This document shows, in pieces, positions 1 through 38,036 of a DNA stretch of 38,036 nucleotides. This stretch comes from Candidatus Ancillula glyptotermitis (GTDB lineage: Bacteria > Actinomycetota > Actinomycetes > Actinomycetales > Bifidobacteriaceae), in the NCBI GenBank assembly GCA_031268675.1, contig JAIRWY010000066.1:1-38036 (forward strand), read 5' to 3'. A model generated the notes under the pieces. The model saw only the letters and a program-made list of their open reading frames with translations. It made no database searches and was not told the DNA's origin. The stretch's first letter is position 1, and every line of letters begins with the position of its first letter. The position numbers and the translations under genes were made by a program.

Positions 1-125
1 GTTTTCCCCCTTCAAAATAGTACATGTGTATATAACACACATAAGCACCTTAAATCAAACCACGTGCTTATAAATAGCCTTAATGAAGGTCTAGGTTATA
101 AAACCACCTGGATTTGCTCCAGAAG
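1..125 (+). repeat. Structured intergenic repeat, copy 1
   Basis: This block matches 37739-37865 in the same orientation, with only four substitutions and one 2-nt indel that I can see. It contains four potential hairpins in order: ATGTGT/ACACAT, ATAAGCAC/GTGCTTAT (perfect 8 bp here), CCTT/AAGG with an AATG loop, and TCTAGG/CCTGGA, which has one U-G wobble in a plus-strand transcript. It does not encode a protein. The window begins at its first base, so it may extend further left. The family is not one I recognise. Confidence 0.9.
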
Positions 126-459
126 AAGTTTTTGCAGGTGCCGCCCATTAAAGAAGTTTTAGCTTATAGAAGACTTGTATTTAAGAGGGGTTGATGATAA
201 ATGGAAGTTGTTGTAGTTTGGATTAAAATCCAGCTTACCTGCATTTATACTGCACATCGGACACCTGTATTTAGCATCAACATGCAAGAAAATTCTACAA
301 TTGCTTAATCTTCATCATGTTAAGAGTTACGTAATTTACTGTACCTGAGGGGTATTTTATCTGATGAGTGGCGAAAAAGAGGCAAAATATGCAATATAAG
401 GTAGTAGTGAATTTATAATAAAATTTGAACTTAAAACAACAACCAAATATACAAAAGTG
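126..459. other. Gene-free leader region upstream of gap
   Basis: I find no convincing gene here; a minus-strand open frame that runs through it into gap is a shadow. What can be seen are short complementary segments: TGCAGGT at 133-139 can pair with ACCTGCA at 237-243, the overlapping CAGGTG at 135-140 can pair with CACCTG at 262-267, and there is a 6-bp inverted repeat at 219-232. These lie upstream of the gap promoter, so any RNA they form would be separate from the main gap transcript. Confidence 0.5.
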
Positions 460-468
460 TGCTATAAT
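460..468 (+). promoter_or_regulatory. Extended -10 promoter of gap
   Basis: TGCTATAAT is a perfect extended -10 element. No recognisable -35 box lies 16-18 bp upstream. Transcription would start near 475, leaving a leader of about 25 nt that carries the GAGGAG ribosome-binding site of gap. Confidence 0.7.
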
Positions 469-25340: not shown

Positions 25341-28300
25341 TTAGTTGCTTAACGGCTCCAATAGTTTTTCATGTAGAATATTAAGTTGTTGTGCACTATA
25401 TTCCATGTTCTTATCCTCTGCAATATATGCAAAAGTTGCATGGATATTTTTCGGTGCAATTTCTGGGTGCAATTTCAACCATGCTTCACGGTATATTGCA
25501 AGTTGAATCGCTTTATCATTTATTTTGCTCTTATGAGGAAGTTTTCCTGTTTTCCAATCAACAATTTCGTATTCGCCATTATGCTCAAAGACCGCATCAA
25601 TACGAGCAGTTATAATATGCGAACCACTTGAATAATTAATTTCCTGTTCGGTTATGTGTGGAGTCATTAGCGCCCATTTAGTTTTCAAAAACTTCTCTAT
25701 TAAAATCCTAAATGTTTCATTTTTTTTCAGTTTTTCAATAGTGCACTCGTAATTACCACCTCTAAGAGCTTCGTAGTATTTTGATTTATAATATGAGTCA
25801 ATCCATTCATGAAATTTTGTGCCGAGATCGCTTTGTGCCGTTGGTTCACTGGGCATTTGGCATATTAAGTTCTCCAAGAATTTTTCTTTATTCTCAATTA
25901 GTTGAACTACTTTTGATGTTGATAAATTAACAGGCAGTTTTAGTTGTTCTTTCCAGTTTTTCTGTTCATTTTTATGAAATTCATACTCATCTAACAACAA
26001 CTTCATTTGCTGGTGAATTTGATTGTCCGCAGAATATTCCAAAATTTCAGATGCTTTTTCAACTGCTCTTGCACTTTTAATAATAGCTTCTTGTAGACTC
26101 GAAACTTTGTAGTTTGGCCATTTTACAGATTTGCGTATTGCAGCTTGTGTTGGGAACTGATAGTCCTCATTCTTGTGGTATTCCTTAACTAGTTTATGAA
26201 ATGCGGTACATGTTGGTGCATGCCCACTTTTACTAGTAGCATTTGCTGCATCCAGAAAAAAAGGTGTTGGCATTGTAATCTGCTTTACCCCGCGCACAAA
26301 AAGACTTGCAGTAATGAGCAGATGTGATTTAGCGCGTGTATATGCAACATATGCAAGTCTTCGTCGCTCAACTAAGTGCTTTATACCAACAGTTTCCTCA
26401 AATTTACCAATTGCAGCGTCATATTTATAGCGGTTTGTAATTTCTGCTAGCTCTAAGGCATTTGATTTTGCTAGTACTTTATTATCAAGTGTTAGCGAGT
26501 CTGGTAATGCATTTTTTGAGTCCAGCCATCCTGACTCATTTTTTGGAATATACGTTCCATCTGGCGTGAACTGATTTTTTGGATCACGAGTATCATACAA
26601 AAACTGTTTTGTAGTATTTGACACTGAACATACAATATCCCATTCAAGTCCTTTTGCACCATGAATAGTTATAATTTGAACTGCGCCTCTACTAATTGGT
26701 CGAATTGGCGTATCTAGCCCATTATCTTGTTCTTTTGACAATTGAATCCAGTCCAAAAAGTTGCTTACCGACTCTTCTGTTGTATTTTTACTATATTCGG
26801 ATGTCAAGAATCTAAACGAGTTCAAGTTAATACTTGCGGTATAAGTACTACTTTCAGAGTTTTGTCCATGACCATTTTCGTCTTCAATTAGTTGATTTAT
26901 TATCTTTAGTTCGTTCTCAATTTCAAGAATTTCTACCGCTTTCTCAATAATCTCAGGTACTGGATTTGCAAGATATTGTTTCATCTTCACAATCATAGTT
27001 GCCAAATTCTGTATTCTAGAAAATGTTTCTTGATTTTTTATAGACTTTTTTATTTTATAAGCAAATGCATTATCGGTTAGCGAATCCACTACCACATCAA
27101 CAAGAGTTCGCGCTTTTTGCGAATCTGAATGCGTGACAAACTTACCAAGTGTGTTTATATCCTTAGGTCCTAAATTTATTCTTGGAGAAACTAGCAAGCG
27201 CATTAAATAAGATGACTCCTCAGGATCCGAAGCAGCAGATATAAGCGCAATTACGTCTGTAATTTCAGGAAGTTCAAGCAAACCTCCAATTCCAATAACC
27301 TCAACAGGTACATTTCTTCTATCAAGTTCATTTTTGAAGACCAAGAAATCTGAGCGAGTTGGACACAGTATTGCGGCAGTTCTTTTTTCACCAGTATTTT
27401 TTTCTTGCGCATTATATTTCGTCCAATTTTCTTCTATAAAATCTGCAACAACTTGTGCTTCAACATCTTTATCTGTCACAACTTCAGGAATTTTTAACAT
27501 GGTTTTCTCTGCGCTATTTCCTGTTAATTCATTAAATAGTTCAAGTTGTTCATTAGACTGGAATTTAACAGTTGTTGGAATATCAGATAAGCAGAGTTTG
27601 GTTTTTACAATTCCATTATTTATATTTTTACCAGCATTTAATTTGTCTACGCTTTTATCAAGCTGCTTTGATATTGAATTTGCAACTTTAAGTACTGATT
27701 CACTATTTCTCCATGATGTCGTAAGTTCATATTTCTTGGCAGGGCTATTATCTCTTGATTTAAAATGATTTGGGAACTCTAAAATGTTTGCCGAACTCGC
27801 TCCACGCCATTCATAAATTGCTTGATTTGGATCTCCAACTGACATTATTGATTGAGTGTTCTTGAAGGTATTTTGTAGCATAACAACTTGAGCTGATGAT
27901 GTATCTTGATATTCATCTAAAATTACAGCCCTATATTGCTCATTGATGCTTTTTACTGCATCAATATTTTCGCTAGTGATTTTAATTGCAAGCTGAATTT
28001 GGTCTGAAAAATCTATTGCATTGTGGATTTCTTTTTGTATTACAAATTCTTTAATTACTTTTAGTATGTTTTTTCTATATTGAATAGATGTAGCAATAGA
28101 TTTATCATTAGTTTTTGCATGATCTACTGGATTTTCAGTTTGTAGTTTTTTATAATTTGAACTTGCTCTAGTACCAAAATTTCTTGTCGTAAATATGTCG
28201 TAAATATTGGATAATAATTCATCGACTGTATCAATATTGCACAAGTTATTTACAATATTATCATTAAAAACTAACATATTTTTTATTACTGAGTTTAATT

Positions 28301-28841
28301 TTATGCTTTCATTTTTATACAAATTACCTAGTGCATCTATAAAGTTGTCGTCAATATCAATTGTTGATAATACTGCATTTTTTGCCAAGTTGTATCTGTC
28401 AGCATTACTTAATACATGAGCAGCAGTATCAATTCCATAATATATTCCATAATCGTTAGTAATATTTGCAGCAAATGAATTATATGTCAATATAGTTGGA
28501 TACAAAACTTGTGAAAAATTACTTGTGCCTCCGAATCCATATATAGATTTTTCTTTTTCTGCTCCAACAATCATGTTGAATTTTTTTAACCGCGATTTTA
28601 TTCTTGCATTTAACTCGCCCCTTGCTTTTCTTGTGAATGTTAAACCAAGTATTTGATCTGGGGTGAAGAAATTATTTGCAATAAGGAATATAATTCTATT
28701 AGCCATAGTCTCAGTTTTACCTGCACCAGCACCTGCAATGACAAGAGATGGTTCATCGGCAGGTGCCTCAATAATCCTGCGCTGCTGCGGAGTTGGTGCG
28801 GAAATTCCAAGTACTTCTGCTATATCACTTGCACTATACAT
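25341..28841 (-). CDS. adnB: AdnB/AddA-like UvrD-family helicase-nuclease
   Basis: This is one subunit of the heterodimeric motor-nuclease that resects DNA double-strand breaks in actinobacteria. I choose ATG 28841, which overlaps the adnA stop (ATGTATAG) after an AAGGTGAAG site; upstream in-frame starts would add residues. Length is about 1,166. SF1 motifs are complete: GAGAGKTETM (Walker A Lys near 42), ILDEYQDTSSAQ (II), SVGDPNQAIYEWRGA (III), IITIHGAKGLEWD (V) and RRLAYVAYTRAKSHL (VI). The C-terminal RecB-type nuclease shows ARIDAVFEH, EIVDWKTGK and QLAIYREAW. The second place in a two-gene operon and lengths match Mycobacterium adnB, the lead motor. AddA would be the name in Firmicutes. 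Confidence 0.92.
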   Translation of the reverse strand: MYSASDIAEVLGISAPTPQQRRIIEAPADEPSLVIAGAGAGKTETMANRIIFLIANNFFTPDQILGLTFTRKARGELNARIKSRLKKFNMIVGAEKEKSIYGFGGTSNFSQVLYPTILTYNSFAANITNDYGIYYGIDTAAHVLSNADRYNLAKNAVLSTIDIDDNFIDALGNLYKNESIKLNSVIKNMLVFNDNIVNNLCNIDTVDELLSNIYDIFTTRNFGTRASSNYKKLQTENPVDHAKTNDKSIATSIQYRKNILKVIKEFVIQKEIHNAIDFSDQIQLAIKITSENIDAVKSINEQYRAVILDEYQDTSSAQVVMLQNTFKNTQSIMSVGDPNQAIYEWRGASSANILEFPNHFKSRDNSPAKKYELTTSWRNSESVLKVANSISKQLDKSVDKLNAGKNINNGIVKTKLCLSDIPTTVKFQSNEQLELFNELTGNSAEKTMLKIPEVVTDKDVEAQVVADFIEENWTKYNAQEKNTGEKRTAAILCPTRSDFLVFKNELDRRNVPVEVIGIGGLLELPEITDVIALISAASDPEESSYLMRLLVSPRINLGPKDINTLGKFVTHSDSQKARTLVDVVVDSLTDNAFAYKIKKSIKNQETFSRIQNLATMIVKMKQYLANPVPEIIEKAVEILEIENELKIINQLIEDENGHGQNSESSTYTASINLNSFRFLTSEYSKNTTEESVSNFLDWIQLSKEQDNGLDTPIRPISRGAVQIITIHGAKGLEWDIVCSVSNTTKQFLYDTRDPKNQFTPDGTYIPKNESGWLDSKNALPDSLTLDNKVLAKSNALELAEITNRYKYDAAIGKFEETVGIKHLVERRRLAYVAYTRAKSHLLITASLFVRGVKQITMPTPFFLDAANATSKSGHAPTCTAFHKLVKEYHKNEDYQFPTQAAIRKSVKWPNYKVSSLQEAIIKSARAVEKASEILEYSADNQIHQQMKLLLDEYEFHKNEQKNWKEQLKLPVNLSTSKVVQLIENKEKFLENLICQMPSEPTAQSDLGTKFHEWIDSYYKSKYYEALRGGNYECTIEKLKKNETFRILIEKFLKTKWALMTPHITEQEINYSSGSHIITARIDAVFEHNGEYEIVDWKTGKLPHKSKINDKAIQLAIYREAWLKLHPEIAPKNIHATFAYIAEDKNMEYSAQQLNILHEKLLEPLSN

Positions 28842-31800
28842 TAGCTTCACCTTCATTTTTGACCGCACTTTCTAAAACATTGTGCCCTATCATTTTTCCA
28901 GCATCAGATTTTATACATGCGTATTTTATGCTGCAGAGATTACAGAAGTTGTCAGATTCTTCATATGTTTCAAATATGTTGCTGTTTAACGCGCTCCAAA
29001 TCGAATCCAACATTATGTCAATATCAGGAGCTAGTTCGTTGATGCTTCTTTGAATATACTCTCTGCTTTTTAGCGACTTCGTGTTTTTCCCCAAGTAGAT
29101 CAGTTTTCCTCCTAAAATTTCCTCATCGACTTTCTTCTTTTCTTGATCTATGGTATTTTCATCACTAGATAAATAACTCCCGTATTTTAGAAGCATCTGA
29201 TAAATTAAAAGTTGTGGATTTTCATTTAGCCCGATATTCCGCTTTTTTTGTGATATATTACTTGTTGTCCAAACATTTTCGCCAGTTTTCCAGTCTATCA
29301 CCAATAATTCATCTTTATTATTTTTTTCTACACGATCAATGCGACCAAGGAATCGTAAGTATACGTTATTACTGTTCTTTATCAAAAGTTTATATTCAAA
29401 TTTTGCTTCATTTAATTCTTCATCATTAATCTTGGCAATTGCACTTTCGTTCAGATGTGCATCATAATAATATTCAGTCGCAATTTCCATCATTTTTTTC
29501 ATCTTATTTATCTTTGTATATTCTTCAAATTTGTTATCAAATTCTGCTTTTAGATTCTTCTCTTCAATCAGAGTATTTAATACTCCAAGAAGCATTTCTA
29601 ATGTTTTATTTTTGGAGCAGTGTAGTTTATTTACTTTGCTGAGTGTTTCGTGAACGATTGTTCCAATTTTTGCCTCTATTGAAGGTTTATTACAACCACT
29701 TTTTTCAAAAAACCATTTTAATGGGCATTTTAAAAGTGTTTCAACAGAAGATGGTGATATTGTAATGCAGTCATTATTTGTAGTATCATTAAATACTGGA
29801 TCAACATTAGAAATTTCATTTGCATAGTACCAATTTGAAGTCTTTGTGTTTGCAATTTGCATATTAAATAATTTTTTTAAAATCATTGCACTTGAATGTT
29901 TACTAAGTCTAGTAACAGAAATATTTTGATTTTTGTATGCGAAATCAATAAGTTCAAGTCGCATTTTATATATAAGTGTTTGTAAATCTAATGCTTCAAA
30001 TTTTGATGTTGTAAAATTACTTATATCGCTACTCTTATTTGCAAAACATTCCGCATTTTGGAAAAAGGAGGATGGTTCAGAATCTTCAGACAATGTTGAA
30101 AAAATATACAGGTTCTGTGATGTTCTAGTTATTGCAACATAGAATGCTCTTAGTTCTGAATTTAAAATTTCTTTTTGACTGTCTATTCTTGACACAGCAG
30201 AATTTTTATCTTCAATTGAATTAAAAATGCCTAATTCTATGTCAAAAAGTGAGGTATATTTTAATAATAGGTCATGTGGTTTTAAATTTGGCCAACTATC
30301 ATTTAATTCTAGTATAAATACATAATCAAAATGCTTACCTTTCGCACTAGCAGGAGTTAATAAATTTACACCGTTTATATGAGAATTTGCATATAAATTA
30401 TCAGCAGAGAATCTATGTTCGTTGTAATATTGCATAAAGTTATATATATTATTGTCTATTTTATTTTCGTATTCTTTTGCATAGTGGAAAATTTGTATAG
30501 CTGTATTGATGGCGTTATACGCATTTGAATCTGATAAATTTATTGCTTGAGCACTTAATATTTTTGCTACATTTGAAGCATTCCAAATATTCCAAAAAAC
30601 CCTAGAAATAGTATACTCATTCTTAAGTGCATCCATTGTTATTTTAATCAATTTATCAGATGCCATTTTAATTGGTGTTTTTTGATTAAGTGTAACAAAA
30701 AAACACTGTTCTACATCTTTGTGATGATTTTTTATAGCATACTCATTGATGTTTTCACCGTCATCCATACTGTTCAATTCATCTTGTGCAGCGTTAATAA
30801 TGCCTGTAAATGATTTCCATATTGCATGGCTCCTAATTGCTATTTGATGTATTGCAGAATTCGTTGGAATTTTATTTAACTCCAATTTTAGTTTTGCTTC
30901 TTGTAGAATAGATGCAGAATGCGCGATTATTGCAAATTTATTATAGTCAACTTTCCCATTTCCTTCCTTAAAAAGATTCAGGATATTTCTGCGTATTTCA
31001 TAAATTGTATATTGAATTTGCAGATCTAAATTTTCAAATGAGTTGACATATAATGACTTACTAGTATTGGTACTTTTAGCGCTTTTAAACTTGTTCAGGT
31101 GTTGCTCTATCGCTTGAGCGGGTGCAAGATTTACAGCATATTCATCGTCCAATATAATTCTTTTTACTTCATGTTCTGCATTTAACGCATTCTGGAAATT
31201 CACTATTGATCCACGAAAATTATGTGCAGTTTCATTTGGACAACCGATTAAAACAATACGAGTGCCATTATCCATAAGTGTTTTAATAAGATTTAGTGCA
31301 GAGTATGATAATTCTTCTGCATCATCAACTACTAATATATCTAGTGCTAAATCAATTTGGTTTATTTTTAGTATTTCATTTGCATTAAAAATAGTGCGGA
31401 CGTGATCAATTTTCTTTTTTGCATCCAATAGTTCAATATACTCACTATAAAAGTACTTCACATCTTTCCAAATCTCCACATTATATTTTTCACCTAGTTG
31501 ATTAAGGTTTTCTGGAGAAATATTTAAATTTTCTGCAGTTTCAATTAGTTCTCTCAGTTCTTGGACAAATCTCTCAGTTCCAGCAATTCTTGGTGTAATT
31601 TTATGTAACTGTAATGTACTATTTGCAACTTTTTCAATAACATTATTTATTGCCTGTGTAATTACAGTATATTCTTCAGGTCCTGTTAATAATTCATATT
31701 CACAATATTTATCATGTTTCTGATGATACTTTGTGTAATTTGCGTATTCTAAGAAAATTTTAGAGCATAAAGAATGAATTGTGCGTATATCAATAGTTTT

Positions 31801-32046
31801 TTCAACTAGTTGTACATTATTTTCTACTATTTTACTTAGATACTCCTTTTTTAAATTACTTGCATTTATTCTGCTCGAACATATTGCAGTTACGCGCATA
31901 TCAACGCCATTAGATTTGCGTAAGTTTTTTGCTTGTAACATGATACTTAGCGCAAGACTTGTTTTACCAGAACATGCCGAACCAAACACTTCATAATTGC
32001 ATGAACTGCTCAAAATTTCATTTGCTAGACTCTCCAATTTCTTCAT
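28834..32046 (-). CDS. adnA: AdnA/AddB-like helicase-nuclease with Fe-S cysteines
   Basis: Partner subunit of the break-resection complex, about 1,070 residues. ATG 32046 is preferred because a TACAAT box ends 7 nt before it, suggesting a leaderless mRNA; ATG 32055 is three codons upstream and neither has a ribosome-binding site. Walker A is GSACSGKTS (Lys near 28); motif II is the weak VVDDAEE; motif VI is FYVAITRTSQNLYIF. The C-terminal nuclease shows FLGRIDRVEK and LLVIDWKTGE. Cysteines in LLKCPLKWFF and in CNLCSIKYAC (C-x2-C-x5-C) surround the nuclease and match the [4Fe-4S] clasp of AddB-type nucleases. Sequence outside motifs is AT-rich and poorly conserved. Gene order and sizes fit Mycobacterium adnA-adnB. 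Confidence 0.88.
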   Translation of the reverse strand: MKKLESLANEILSSSCNYEVFGSACSGKTSLALSIMLQAKNLRKSNGVDMRVTAICSSRINASNLKKEYLSKIVENNVQLVEKTIDIRTIHSLCSKIFLEYANYTKYHQKHDKYCEYELLTGPEEYTVITQAINNVIEKVANSTLQLHKITPRIAGTERFVQELRELIETAENLNISPENLNQLGEKYNVEIWKDVKYFYSEYIELLDAKKKIDHVRTIFNANEILKINQIDLALDILVVDDAEELSYSALNLIKTLMDNGTRIVLIGCPNETAHNFRGSIVNFQNALNAEHEVKRIILDDEYAVNLAPAQAIEQHLNKFKSAKSTNTSKSLYVNSFENLDLQIQYTIYEIRRNILNLFKEGNGKVDYNKFAIIAHSASILQEAKLKLELNKIPTNSAIHQIAIRSHAIWKSFTGIINAAQDELNSMDDGENINEYAIKNHHKDVEQCFFVTLNQKTPIKMASDKLIKITMDALKNEYTISRVFWNIWNASNVAKILSAQAINLSDSNAYNAINTAIQIFHYAKEYENKIDNNIYNFMQYYNEHRFSADNLYANSHINGVNLLTPASAKGKHFDYVFILELNDSWPNLKPHDLLLKYTSLFDIELGIFNSIEDKNSAVSRIDSQKEILNSELRAFYVAITRTSQNLYIFSTLSEDSEPSSFFQNAECFANKSSDISNFTTSKFEALDLQTLIYKMRLELIDFAYKNQNISVTRLSKHSSAMILKKLFNMQIANTKTSNWYYANEISNVDPVFNDTTNNDCITISPSSVETLLKCPLKWFFEKSGCNKPSIEAKIGTIVHETLSKVNKLHCSKNKTLEMLLGVLNTLIEEKNLKAEFDNKFEEYTKINKMKKMMEIATEYYYDAHLNESAIAKINDEELNEAKFEYKLLIKNSNNVYLRFLGRIDRVEKNNKDELLVIDWKTGENVWTTSNISQKKRNIGLNENPQLLIYQMLLKYGSYLSSDENTIDQEKKKVDEEILGGKLIYLGKNTKSLKSREYIQRSINELAPDIDIMLDSIWSALNSNIFETYEESDNFCNLCSIKYACIKSDAGKMIGHNVLESAVKNEGEANV

Positions 32047-32125
32047 ACTTATCATTGTACTATATACCTATGACATTTTACAGCAACAAATAGGTGTGGT
32101 AAATAAAATCGTCACAACCTAAATC

Positions 32126-35617: not shown

Positions 35618-36360
35618 ATAACTGCGAGACCAGCAGAAATTGCCGTTGCAGAACGTAGAACATTTGATGAGATTTTGCATATATCTGCTTGTAGTTTGCG
35701 GAAACCAAGTAATTCAACATCTGTAATTCCACCTTCTGGACCAACAATAAGAATTGTGAAATCACTAAGTTTATGAGATAGGTTTGCAATATGTTCAGTT
35801 GCTTGTTCATGCAGAACTACTAATCTCATATTGGTAAATGTATCAAGATATGCGAACAACTTTTTACTATTGAATACGCCCAAAATTACTGGAAAATGTG
35901 CGCGTCTGGACTGTTTACTGCTCTTTATTATCAGGTTTTGCATTTTTTCAATAGATTTTTGTGATGATTTTTCATCTGTCCATTTTGCAATAGAACGGTT
36001 AGCTTGCCAAAAAATAATATTGGTAGCACCAAGCTCGATGGCATTTTCAACTGCCTGAGTCATTCTGTCGCTTTTTAGTAGTGGAATTACTACGGTTATA
36101 TATTTTTCGCAAACTTCATGTACTACATTTAGAACTTCAAAATCTAGTGGAATAATACTCGTAATACGAGAAGTTACTCGAATACCCTCACCATCAACAA
36201 TATCAATTATATCATCAATTGAATGGCGTTTAACTTTTACAATATGCAAAACTTCTGCATCAGCTAACTCAATTACAGAACTGGGGATAGATATTCCATC
36301 AGAGTAATTAAATGTATCAAGTTTTTGTATATCTATTTTTCCATAATACACCTCATGCAC
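35593..36360 (-). CDS. rsmE: 16S rRNA (uracil-1498-N3)-methyltransferase RsmE
   Basis: RsmE methylates U1498 in 16S rRNA of the 30S subunit. The 255-residue protein has an N-terminal PUA-like domain (about 1-75, with LHIVKVKRHSIDDIIDIVDGEG) and a C-terminal SPOUT methyltransferase domain. Family motifs are LLKSDRMTQAVENAIELGATNI, SKQSRRAHFPVI, the SAM-binding LIVGPEGGI and the knot segment VLRSATA, where most members have LRTETA. GTG 36360 shares its first base with the dnaJ stop (TAGTG), so it is translationally coupled to dnaJ. The dnaJ-rsmE pair is common in Gram-positive bacteria. Confidence 0.94.
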   Translation of the reverse strand: MHEVYYGKIDIQKLDTFNYSDGISIPSSVIELADAEVLHIVKVKRHSIDDIIDIVDGEGIRVTSRITSIIPLDFEVLNVVHEVCEKYITVVIPLLKSDRMTQAVENAIELGATNIIFWQANRSIAKWTDEKSSQKSIEKMQNLIIKSSKQSRRAHFPVILGVFNSKKLFAYLDTFTNMRLVVLHEQATEHIANLSHKLSDFTILIVGPEGGITDVELLGFRKLQADICKISSNVLRSATAISAGLAVIYNLSKTD

Positions 36361-37499
36361 TAAAATATCCTTTTAATCCAGTCCCAAAATCCACCAACTT
36401 TTATACTTTCAAGTTCAGGTTTAAACTTGTTGTCCTTTAAGCTGTCTCGTAGTTGTTCAACTAATTTTACTTGCTTAGAGTCTAATTTTGTTGGAATATT
36501 AACATCTAAGAAAACTAGTAAATCTCCACGCGTTGAACTTTCTATACTTTTGGGCATTCCATAACCTGGAAGTTTCACAATTGTTCCACTAGATGATCCA
36601 AGCTGTATGTCTACTGTTGCCTTTCCATCTAATGTATTCACTTCAACCGAACCACCAAGTATTGCAAGAGTAACTGGTATAGACAATTTGCAGTTTAAAT
36701 CACTACCAGAAAGCATAAAAACATCATGTTCACGAACGCTAATCTCAAGTATTAGATCCCCATGCTTTCCGCCTTTTCTGCCCGCATTGCCTTCACCATG
36801 AAGTCGAACATGACTGCCGTCTGTGCATCCAACTGGAAGTTTAACCTTAATCTTCTTATGCCCTTTAACTGCACCATGTCCTCGACAATCTGCACAAGGA
36901 TTTTTCAAAATAGAACCTGCACCATGACAATTTGGACAAGTAGCAGTCTGAACAATTTGTCCAAATAGAGAATTAGCAACTTTTCGAACACTACCAGCAC
37001 CTTGGCATACAGAGCATGATACTTCCTGAATGCCTCCTTTTGCACCAAGTCCTGAGCAAGTTTTACATACTACTAGAAGCGAAAGCTGCAGAGTTTTTTC
37101 TGCACCAAAAATGGACTCTTCTAGTGTAATTTTTTCTCGGACTAGCAAATCTTCACCTTTAATGTGAGTTGTGTTTCTTTCTCCTTGATTGCCAAATCCA
37201 GAGTTAAATGAAAAACCTCCAAAGATATCACTAAACATGTTTGCAAAATCTGAGCCGAATGGACCTGCACCGCCACCATTTTGTGATAATGGGTCAACTC
37301 CAGAGTCATATAATGAGCGCTTCTGTGGATCTGTCAATACTTCATAAGCTGTTGATATTTCTTTAAAAGCTTCTTCGTCATTTGAGTCATTTTCTGTACT
37401 ATCAGGATGATGTTTACGCGCAAGCCTTCTATATGCTTTTTTTATTTCAAGTTCAGTTGCATTCCTTGATATGCCAAGTATACTGTAATAATCCTTCAA
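36360..37499 (-). CDS. dnaJ: Chaperone protein DnaJ
   Basis: DnaJ delivers substrates to DnaK and stimulates its ATPase. The 379-residue protein has a J domain (1-65) with HPD at 31-33, a Gly/Phe-rich linker (about 70-105), four CxxCxGxG zinc repeats between 145 and 208 ([32 protein letters not shown]), and the C-terminal substrate-binding domains. This is a complete type I DnaJ. The start is TTG 37499 after an AAGGAG site. A consensus promoter lies about 100 nt upstream with an operator-like region between. No hrcA gene precedes it, unlike in the usual hrcA-dnaJ pair. rsmE follows with a 1-nt overlap. Confidence 0.97.
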
Positions 37500-37603: not shown

Positions 37604-37632
37604 ATTATAGCATATATATGCATATTTGTCAA
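37604..37632 (-). promoter_or_regulatory. Full-consensus promoter of dnaJ
   Basis: On the minus strand a perfect TTGACA (37632-37627) is separated by 17 bp from a perfect TATAAT (37609-37604), preceded by TGC as an extended -10. This is the strongest promoter in the window. Such a promoter usually needs a repressor to be regulated, which fits the motif cluster downstream. Confidence 0.85.
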
Positions 37633-37651
37633 CTAGGGCTGGATTCTAATC

Positions 37652-37663
37652 AGAAGTGCAACA
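37652..37663 (+). repeat. Short direct repeat, left copy
   Basis: AGAAGTGCAACA occurs here and again at 37861-37872, bracketing the 197 bp that contain nearly all of the second long repeat. It could be a target-site duplication or a chance match. Confidence 0.5.
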
Positions 37664-37738
37664 CCTTAAGAAGTAATATTTTAGGCGAGAAGTAGTACTT
37701 ATCACTCTGCTTATACCTCATGAAGTCTAAAAAAGCCT

Positions 37739-37865
37739 GTTTTCCCTCTTCAAAATAGTACATGTGTAATATATACACACATAAGCACCTTAAATCAAAC
37801 CACATGCTTATAAATAGCCTTAATGAAGGTCTAGGTTATAAAACCACCTAGATTTGCTCAAGAAG
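37739..37865 (+). repeat. Structured intergenic repeat, copy 2
   Basis: This is the second copy of the element at 1-125, 127 nt long and about 95% identical by eye. The hairpins are kept: ATGTGT/ACACAT (loop 2 nt longer), ATAAGCA/TGCTTAT (the innermost eighth pair is lost), CCTT/AAGG, and a perfect TCTAGG/CCTAGA. It lies upstream of the dnaJ promoter and points away from dnaJ. No open frame or transposase is associated with it. Confidence 0.9.
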
Positions 37866-37872
37866 TGCAACA
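37861..37872 (+). repeat. Short direct repeat, right copy
   Basis: Second AGAAGTGCAACA, starting directly at the right end of the long repeat. The first five bases are also present after copy 1 of the long repeat, so the exact boundary is ambiguous. Confidence 0.5.
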
Positions 37873-38036
37873 ACCAAAATCAAATCACCAAGTGGAAAAA
37901 ATGTGAAGAAGATTATGGAAGATATAAGAACACAAGTAAATAAGGACACCAGATGTCAAAACTTGGAAAATACAAACATCTGATGTATATTGTGTGTATG
38001 ACCAAGTACACGCACCTCAGTATAGCAGAAAGAAGA
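37873..38036. other. Gene-free right end of the window
   Basis: I see no gene. CAGATGT (37950-37956) and ACATCTG (37976-37982) form a 7-bp inverted repeat with a 19-nt spacer. Together with 37500-37872 this makes over 500 bp without a coding region, holding the dnaJ promoter and the long repeat. Confidence 0.5.

Follow-up and report, generated by a model that had tools for sequence, protein, structure and literature searches.

The window analysed here, a stretch of 38,036 nucleotides from Candidatus Ancillula glyptotermitis, carries the same short sequence at both of its ends, and the question is what this repeat is and why it should occur at both ends. As a preliminary description of the window had recorded, the copies at 1-125 and 37739-37865 are direct repeats with four substitutions and a single 2-nt indel between them; their identity is 95%. 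That description named a structured RNA, a non-autonomous mobile repeat, and a chromosome-organising site as possible identities.

Copies in the genome and in its relatives

The search of the whole genome and of relatives, which the preliminary description had proposed, returned 40 matches to the repeat (termed the core below) in the draft genome (1.80 Mb, 100 contigs, 82% complete), and none among the relatives examined. Even the weakest match, with an E-value of 1e-38, is far from what chance would give, and full-length matches are 91-97% identical to the query. Just over half of the matches (21 of 40) are no more than 25 bp from a contig end. Some left and right fragments may belong to one locus, and with this taken into account we estimate 32-41 loci in total. 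The window is itself one whole contig, and the repeat stands at both of its ends mostly because the assembly breaks at dispersed repeats. That the repeat is an artefact of assembly, or arose by simple recent duplication, as the many matches at contig ends might suggest, is almost certainly wrong, and we count this explanation as already refuted by the approximately 19 copies that lie inside contigs, continue past the core on both sides, and are flanked by different genes. The concern that two direct repeats might recombine across 37.6 kb is likewise largely moot, given that dozens of copies are dispersed genome-wide.

Outside this genome, the core has no BLAST match in 98 relatives, and its covariance model matches nothing in 120 other genomes of the family. 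A phage or plasmid origin was rejected, as the core has no match in phages, plasmids, or IMG/VR. Within the genome, most core copies lie between divergent genes, the left-hand neighbour pointing leftward and the right-hand one rightward (according to automatic, uncurated open-frame calls), and this location at divergent promoters fits poorly with a chromosome-organising site.

The nearest matches to the GAPDH of this genome, a Bifidobacteriaceae-like MAG, come from the MAGs Roe453_bin58 (77%) and Nm470_bin85 (70%), whose isolate names point to a probable origin in the termite gut. The dispersed repeat shows why such MAGs fragment. No transposable elements were detected in related termite-gut MAGs (PMC11707648), and the repeat family described here bears on that result, without the assumption that this genome belongs to the same lineage.

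Architecture of the element and its conserved centre

The 127-bp core is the centre of a unit of about 320 bp, which consists of a 27-bp terminal repeat (T), a left arm, the core, a right arm, and an inverted T (Table 1). In a comparison of flanks and a per-side scan, T of most intact copies is found 72-75 bp to the left and either 69-70 or 94-97 bp to the right of the core, and some copies have no T or no arm on one side. The unit is multicopy, lies between genes according to automatic open-frame calls, and has no conserved long frame. Two features of MITEs are therefore present: inverted terminal repeats (the 27-bp T, inverted at both ends of most intact copies) and a short, non-coding, multicopy, intergenic form (about 320 bp, 32-41 loci). 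With regard to target-site duplication, no matching 2-3 bp flanks were recognised by eye in complete elements, whose ends are variable and in some cases possibly recombinant.

Table 1. Coordinates of the repeat copies, their parts and the neighbouring promoters in the window.
Feature	Position	Strand	Remark
Repeat copy 1	1..125	+	Conserved unit to ~109; contig start cuts left side
T-like 18-mer CTGGATTTGCTCCAGAAG in copy 1	108-125	+	
Right arm, copy 1	126..206	+	Common to nearly all copies with right flank
Right terminal repeat T, copy 1 (gttgttgtagtttggattaaaatccag)	207..233	+	Not promoter-locked; gap -10 box ~230 bp further
Extended -10 promoter TGTGCTATAAT of gap	458..468	+	gap CDS 500-1513
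-10 box TATAAT upstream of dnaJ	37604..37609	-	dnaJ CDS 36360-37499, minus strand
Left terminal repeat T, copy 2 (ggtgttgcacttctgattagaatccag read outward)	37639..37665	-	Outer end 29 bp from dnaJ -10 box
Left arm, copy 2	37666..37716	+	
Conserved central block, copy 2	37717..37849	+	Contains most of reported 37739-37865
Repeat copy 2 as reported	37739..37865	+	
T-like left end (ctagatttgctcaagaagtgcaacaacc) of IS30-derived element	37848..37875	+	Abuts central block; same junction in L008 (C54)
Left part of IS30-derived element	37876..38036	+	Continues past contig end

Conservation is highest at the centre of the unit, where pairwise identity is 96.6% (core), compared with 85-86% in the arms and 70-79% in T. 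Diversity is lowest (0.006-0.03) across most of a block that extends from approximately -22 to +110 (counted from the start of the core), and is greater near +5 to +19; the arm values beside this block are inflated by truncated copies. The right edge of the block is sharp and the left edge fairly sharp. The repeat as first described is real, and its drawn limits are not those of the conserved block; the last 18 nt of the reported sequence (CTGGATTTGCTCAAGAAG) look like the terminal repeat of an adjacent element.

The edges of the block are also where other sequences join. At four loci (L002, L009, L017, L026) a promoter is joined straight to its left edge, and in two copies (window copy 2 and L008) the right arm is replaced by an IS30-derived element. 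In the window, the transposase-like frame of this element begins at 37998 (MTKYTHLSIAERR), and 37876..38036 is 99% identical to C44:726-896, on a contig where the transposase gene is internally deleted. The same contig, C44, has a partial core match (L152, 92-127), and carries a right arm joined to the IS30 derivative. Between that right arm and the derivative (L256, ~660-730), two facing T-like 18-mers, 13 bp apart, form a near-perfect 49-bp palindrome.

A core much better conserved than the ends is the reverse of the typical MITE, and a plain MITE does not explain it. One possible explanation is a function of the core as a structured RNA or as a folded single-stranded DNA site, its mobile surroundings being incidental. 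The four hairpins noted previously are indeed predicted, and the core folds slightly better than shuffled sequences, whether treated as RNA (z -2.5 on either strand; 2 of 200 shuffles folded equally well) or as single-stranded DNA (z -3.4; 1 of 200); the low diversity within sharp right and fairly sharp left boundaries also favours a site of this kind. However, compensatory change was found in 0 of 30 predicted pairs (with little variation to test with), the loops of the core are conserved as much as its stems, and an Rfam search of the window matched only a tRNA. Moreover, the copies stand upstream of promoters, mostly between divergent genes, and hence outside the transcripts of those genes. 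The substitutions between the window copies had been read as sparing the pairing of a plus-strand RNA, and they favour neither strand: in the CACGTGC/CACATGC change a G-U pair is kept only on the minus strand, and with CCTGGA only on the plus strand. A structured RNA was rejected after the Rfam search, folding of both strands, a consensus fold, and a family-wide covariance model, which together gave no covariation and no relatives; for a folded core of either kind, RNA or DNA, we consider the prospects poor.

A second explanation addresses the conservation of the core within a mobile element, and attributes it to gene conversion that is biased towards the centre and acts between dispersed copies, the core itself being without a function of its own. 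The increase in diversity from the centre towards the ends is consistent with such a process, and the mosaic of arms and T types suggests that copies have often exchanged sequence. The right boundary, however, is sharp where other elements join, instead of forming a smooth gradient, and we regard gene conversion as an unlikely cause.

Terminal repeats, IS30 elements and promoters

In addition to bounding the core element, T is found at the ends of IS30-related sequences. In this genome, T begins IS30-related sequence on three contigs (C98, C15, C85), and C44 and C51 hold IS30 derivatives with internal deletions that end, like the core element, in gttgatgataaatggaa followed by T, or in a sequence close to it. 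These two derivatives carry N- and C-terminal transposase fragments that tblastn or visual comparison matched to the intact IS30 transposase on C16, an open frame that is assigned to the IS30 family by NF033563 (E 1e-77) and has HTH_38 and rve domains. C16 holds the only intact IS30 transposase gene found, and no T is recognisable at its ends; no intact, T-ended, autonomous IS30 was found in this genome, the copy on C98 being frameshifted. The core has no similarity to IS30.

In the sister genome G001, two IS30 copies end in T, as seen in the part of the element that was examined. In the first copy, T lies 27 bp from a TATAAT box, upstream of a gene whose product we take to be xylulokinase-like; in the second, it lies at a non-promoter site. 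In two of three genus mates, T hardly exceeds background. On several sides of core elements T is present without a promoter (L169, L129, L122, and window 207-233), and therefore belongs to the element. The idea that T is a mere IS30 target was rejected, given that the far ends carry T as well, in inverted orientation.

Where T faces a promoter, the distance between them is in most cases nearly constant. The extended -10 box TGTGGTATAAT occurs 217 times in the genome as an exact match, and once in a reversed control. On the locked sides of core elements (n = 24), the outer end of T is 27 bp (2 sides), 28 bp (16), or 29 bp (6) from the -10 box, and a minority of T-bearing sides is not locked. 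Among 101 near-exact promoters in a 435-kb sample (mainly the longest contigs and three stretches, two of which, like the window, were chosen for core copies), a T score of at least 5 occurs at 28 bp (9 promoters) and 29 bp (3), and at no other distance in the range of 10-139 bp; the profile of T derives largely from the same elements, and holds no distance information. The chance of an extended -10 box within three given positions is about 0.001. This register is independent of the -35 sequence: the best -35 has four mismatches in 10 of the 24 locked sites, and a -35 motif as the target is not favoured on these grounds. Two elements (L111, L171) are locked at both ends, which a single insertion cannot give, and some promoters (L254, L258, L259) have T or its outer half without any element beyond it.

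The outward promoters were rejected as a part of the element itself, as the sequences from T to the -10 box differ among loci and some T ends face no promoter. A biotin-carboxylase-type gene allows one comparison with an orthologous site. In this genome the element is present, with T 28 bp from the -10 box; in the closest relative, G003, the ortholog (82% identity over 200 aa) is preceded by a similar promoter (gtcata followed by gtggtataat), upstream of which the sequence is unrelated and the element absent (one locus, aligned by eye).

Origin of the element and comparison with known systems

We consider it probable that the repeat is the centre of an IS30-mobilised, MITE-like, non-autonomous family with promoter-adjacent insertion. 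Among the identities first proposed, the non-autonomous mobile repeat is the one supported, given the many copies and their architecture, their confinement to this species among the genomes examined, the inverted terminal repeats shared with IS30 elements, the 27-29 bp register, and the orthologous promoter that is empty. An IS30-family transposase acting on T would have spread the element and, less surely, insertion may have been directed to DNA just upstream of the -35 region, at about -41, where the transposase perhaps encounters RNA polymerase that is bound to the promoter. Elements locked at both ends, at divergent promoters, would arise by recombination between two nearby copies, and T may later be retained in the role of an upstream promoter element. 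The nested elements whose T ends face each other agree with the reported insertion of IS30 beside IS30 inverted repeats (PMC9333248).

Against this reading stand the lack of a recognised target-site duplication, the reversed conservation of core and ends, the absence of T from the intact C16 copy, and a core that is not IS30-like; in addition, the lock in G001 rests on one copy, and L111 and L171 are doubly locked. A further-reaching proposal is offered tentatively: a lineage of IS30-family transposases may select active promoters, inserting element ends at about -41 as though against RNA polymerase bound to the promoter; by this means one genome may have come to carry, at many of its promoters, a mobile end that perhaps now serves as an upstream promoter element, a near-invariant 130-bp non-coding block being carried along under selection.

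In the main alternative, T would be an ancestral upstream promoter element or regulator-binding site, and the core composite would have spread among such sites by homologous recombination instead of transposition. The lock would then reflect promoter function, which suits a distance that stays at 27-29 bp whether or not a -35 is present. Part of T is near-palindromic (TTCTGATTAGAA), T matches look better on promoter sides (by inspection), and the solo T or outer half at three element-less promoters means that T could have been a regulatory site first. Yet T also ends core elements that face no promoter, its level is close to background in two of the three genus mates, it is the end of two IS30 copies in G001 (one of them away from promoters), and the G003 ortholog keeps its promoter without T; overall, we find this alternative rather unlikely, and the more serious of those considered.

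Hot spots and insertion between genes are known features of bacterial insertion elements. We know of no case, however, in which element ends stand in an approximately one-base register with promoters across dozens of loci, and a literature search found no precedent for such a register. By description, and not by sequence, the repeat can be likened to ERIC (also ~127 bp), BOX, and RUP, which are of similar length and intergenic; fixed promoter spacing is, to our knowledge, not a feature of these. Should insertion prove to be promoter-directed, the family would be a bacterial analogue of promoter-targeted retroelements; should the register be due to selection, mobile ends would have been turned into a shared upstream promoter element.

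Bacterial MITEs (MITEAba12, Chunjie, Correia, SM1-SM4; PMC10969869) resemble the present family in being short, AT-rich, non-coding, and intergenic, in having tens of copies with inverted terminal repeats and stem-loops, and in the occurrence of truncated and nested copies; nested repeats are also described in pneumococcus (PMC10969869). The present family differs in that its terminal repeats diverge more than its centre, its ends stand at a fixed distance from native promoters, and no target-site duplication was recognised. Correia elements lie upstream of genes and influence transcription (PMC10969869); they carry their own promoters, whereas here at least one promoter appears older than the element. 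Insertion into hot spots, or beside its own inverted repeats, has been reported for IS30 (PMC9333248), and the T ends of IS30-family elements, in this and the sister genome, as well as the nested T ends, are in keeping with that family. In contrast, the described hot spots of IS30 are near-palindromic and not promoters, and the core here is not IS30-derived.

Several other features were observed in the course of this analysis. The TGTGGTATAAT promoters (e.g., at window 458, 4665, and 32861) are often only 6-8 nt before the start codon, a short distance that suggests leaderless genes. The spacer aaaatgtcatagg between -35 and -10 is conserved in many unrelated genes, with or without T; it is present at window 32079 (minus strand) and in roughly half of the 30 promoters sampled (L177-L206). 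A further repeat, gggcggacattccgtaatgtt, lies beside some elements and promoters (L020, L023, L190, L225), and a shared upstream block, ctagtatagcactatattgaa, lies behind T at core-less promoters (L207, L212). Finally, the window holds an AddAB-like pair at 25341-32055, comprised of adjacent minus-strand genes with UvrD-like helicase and PD-(D/E)XK nuclease domains.
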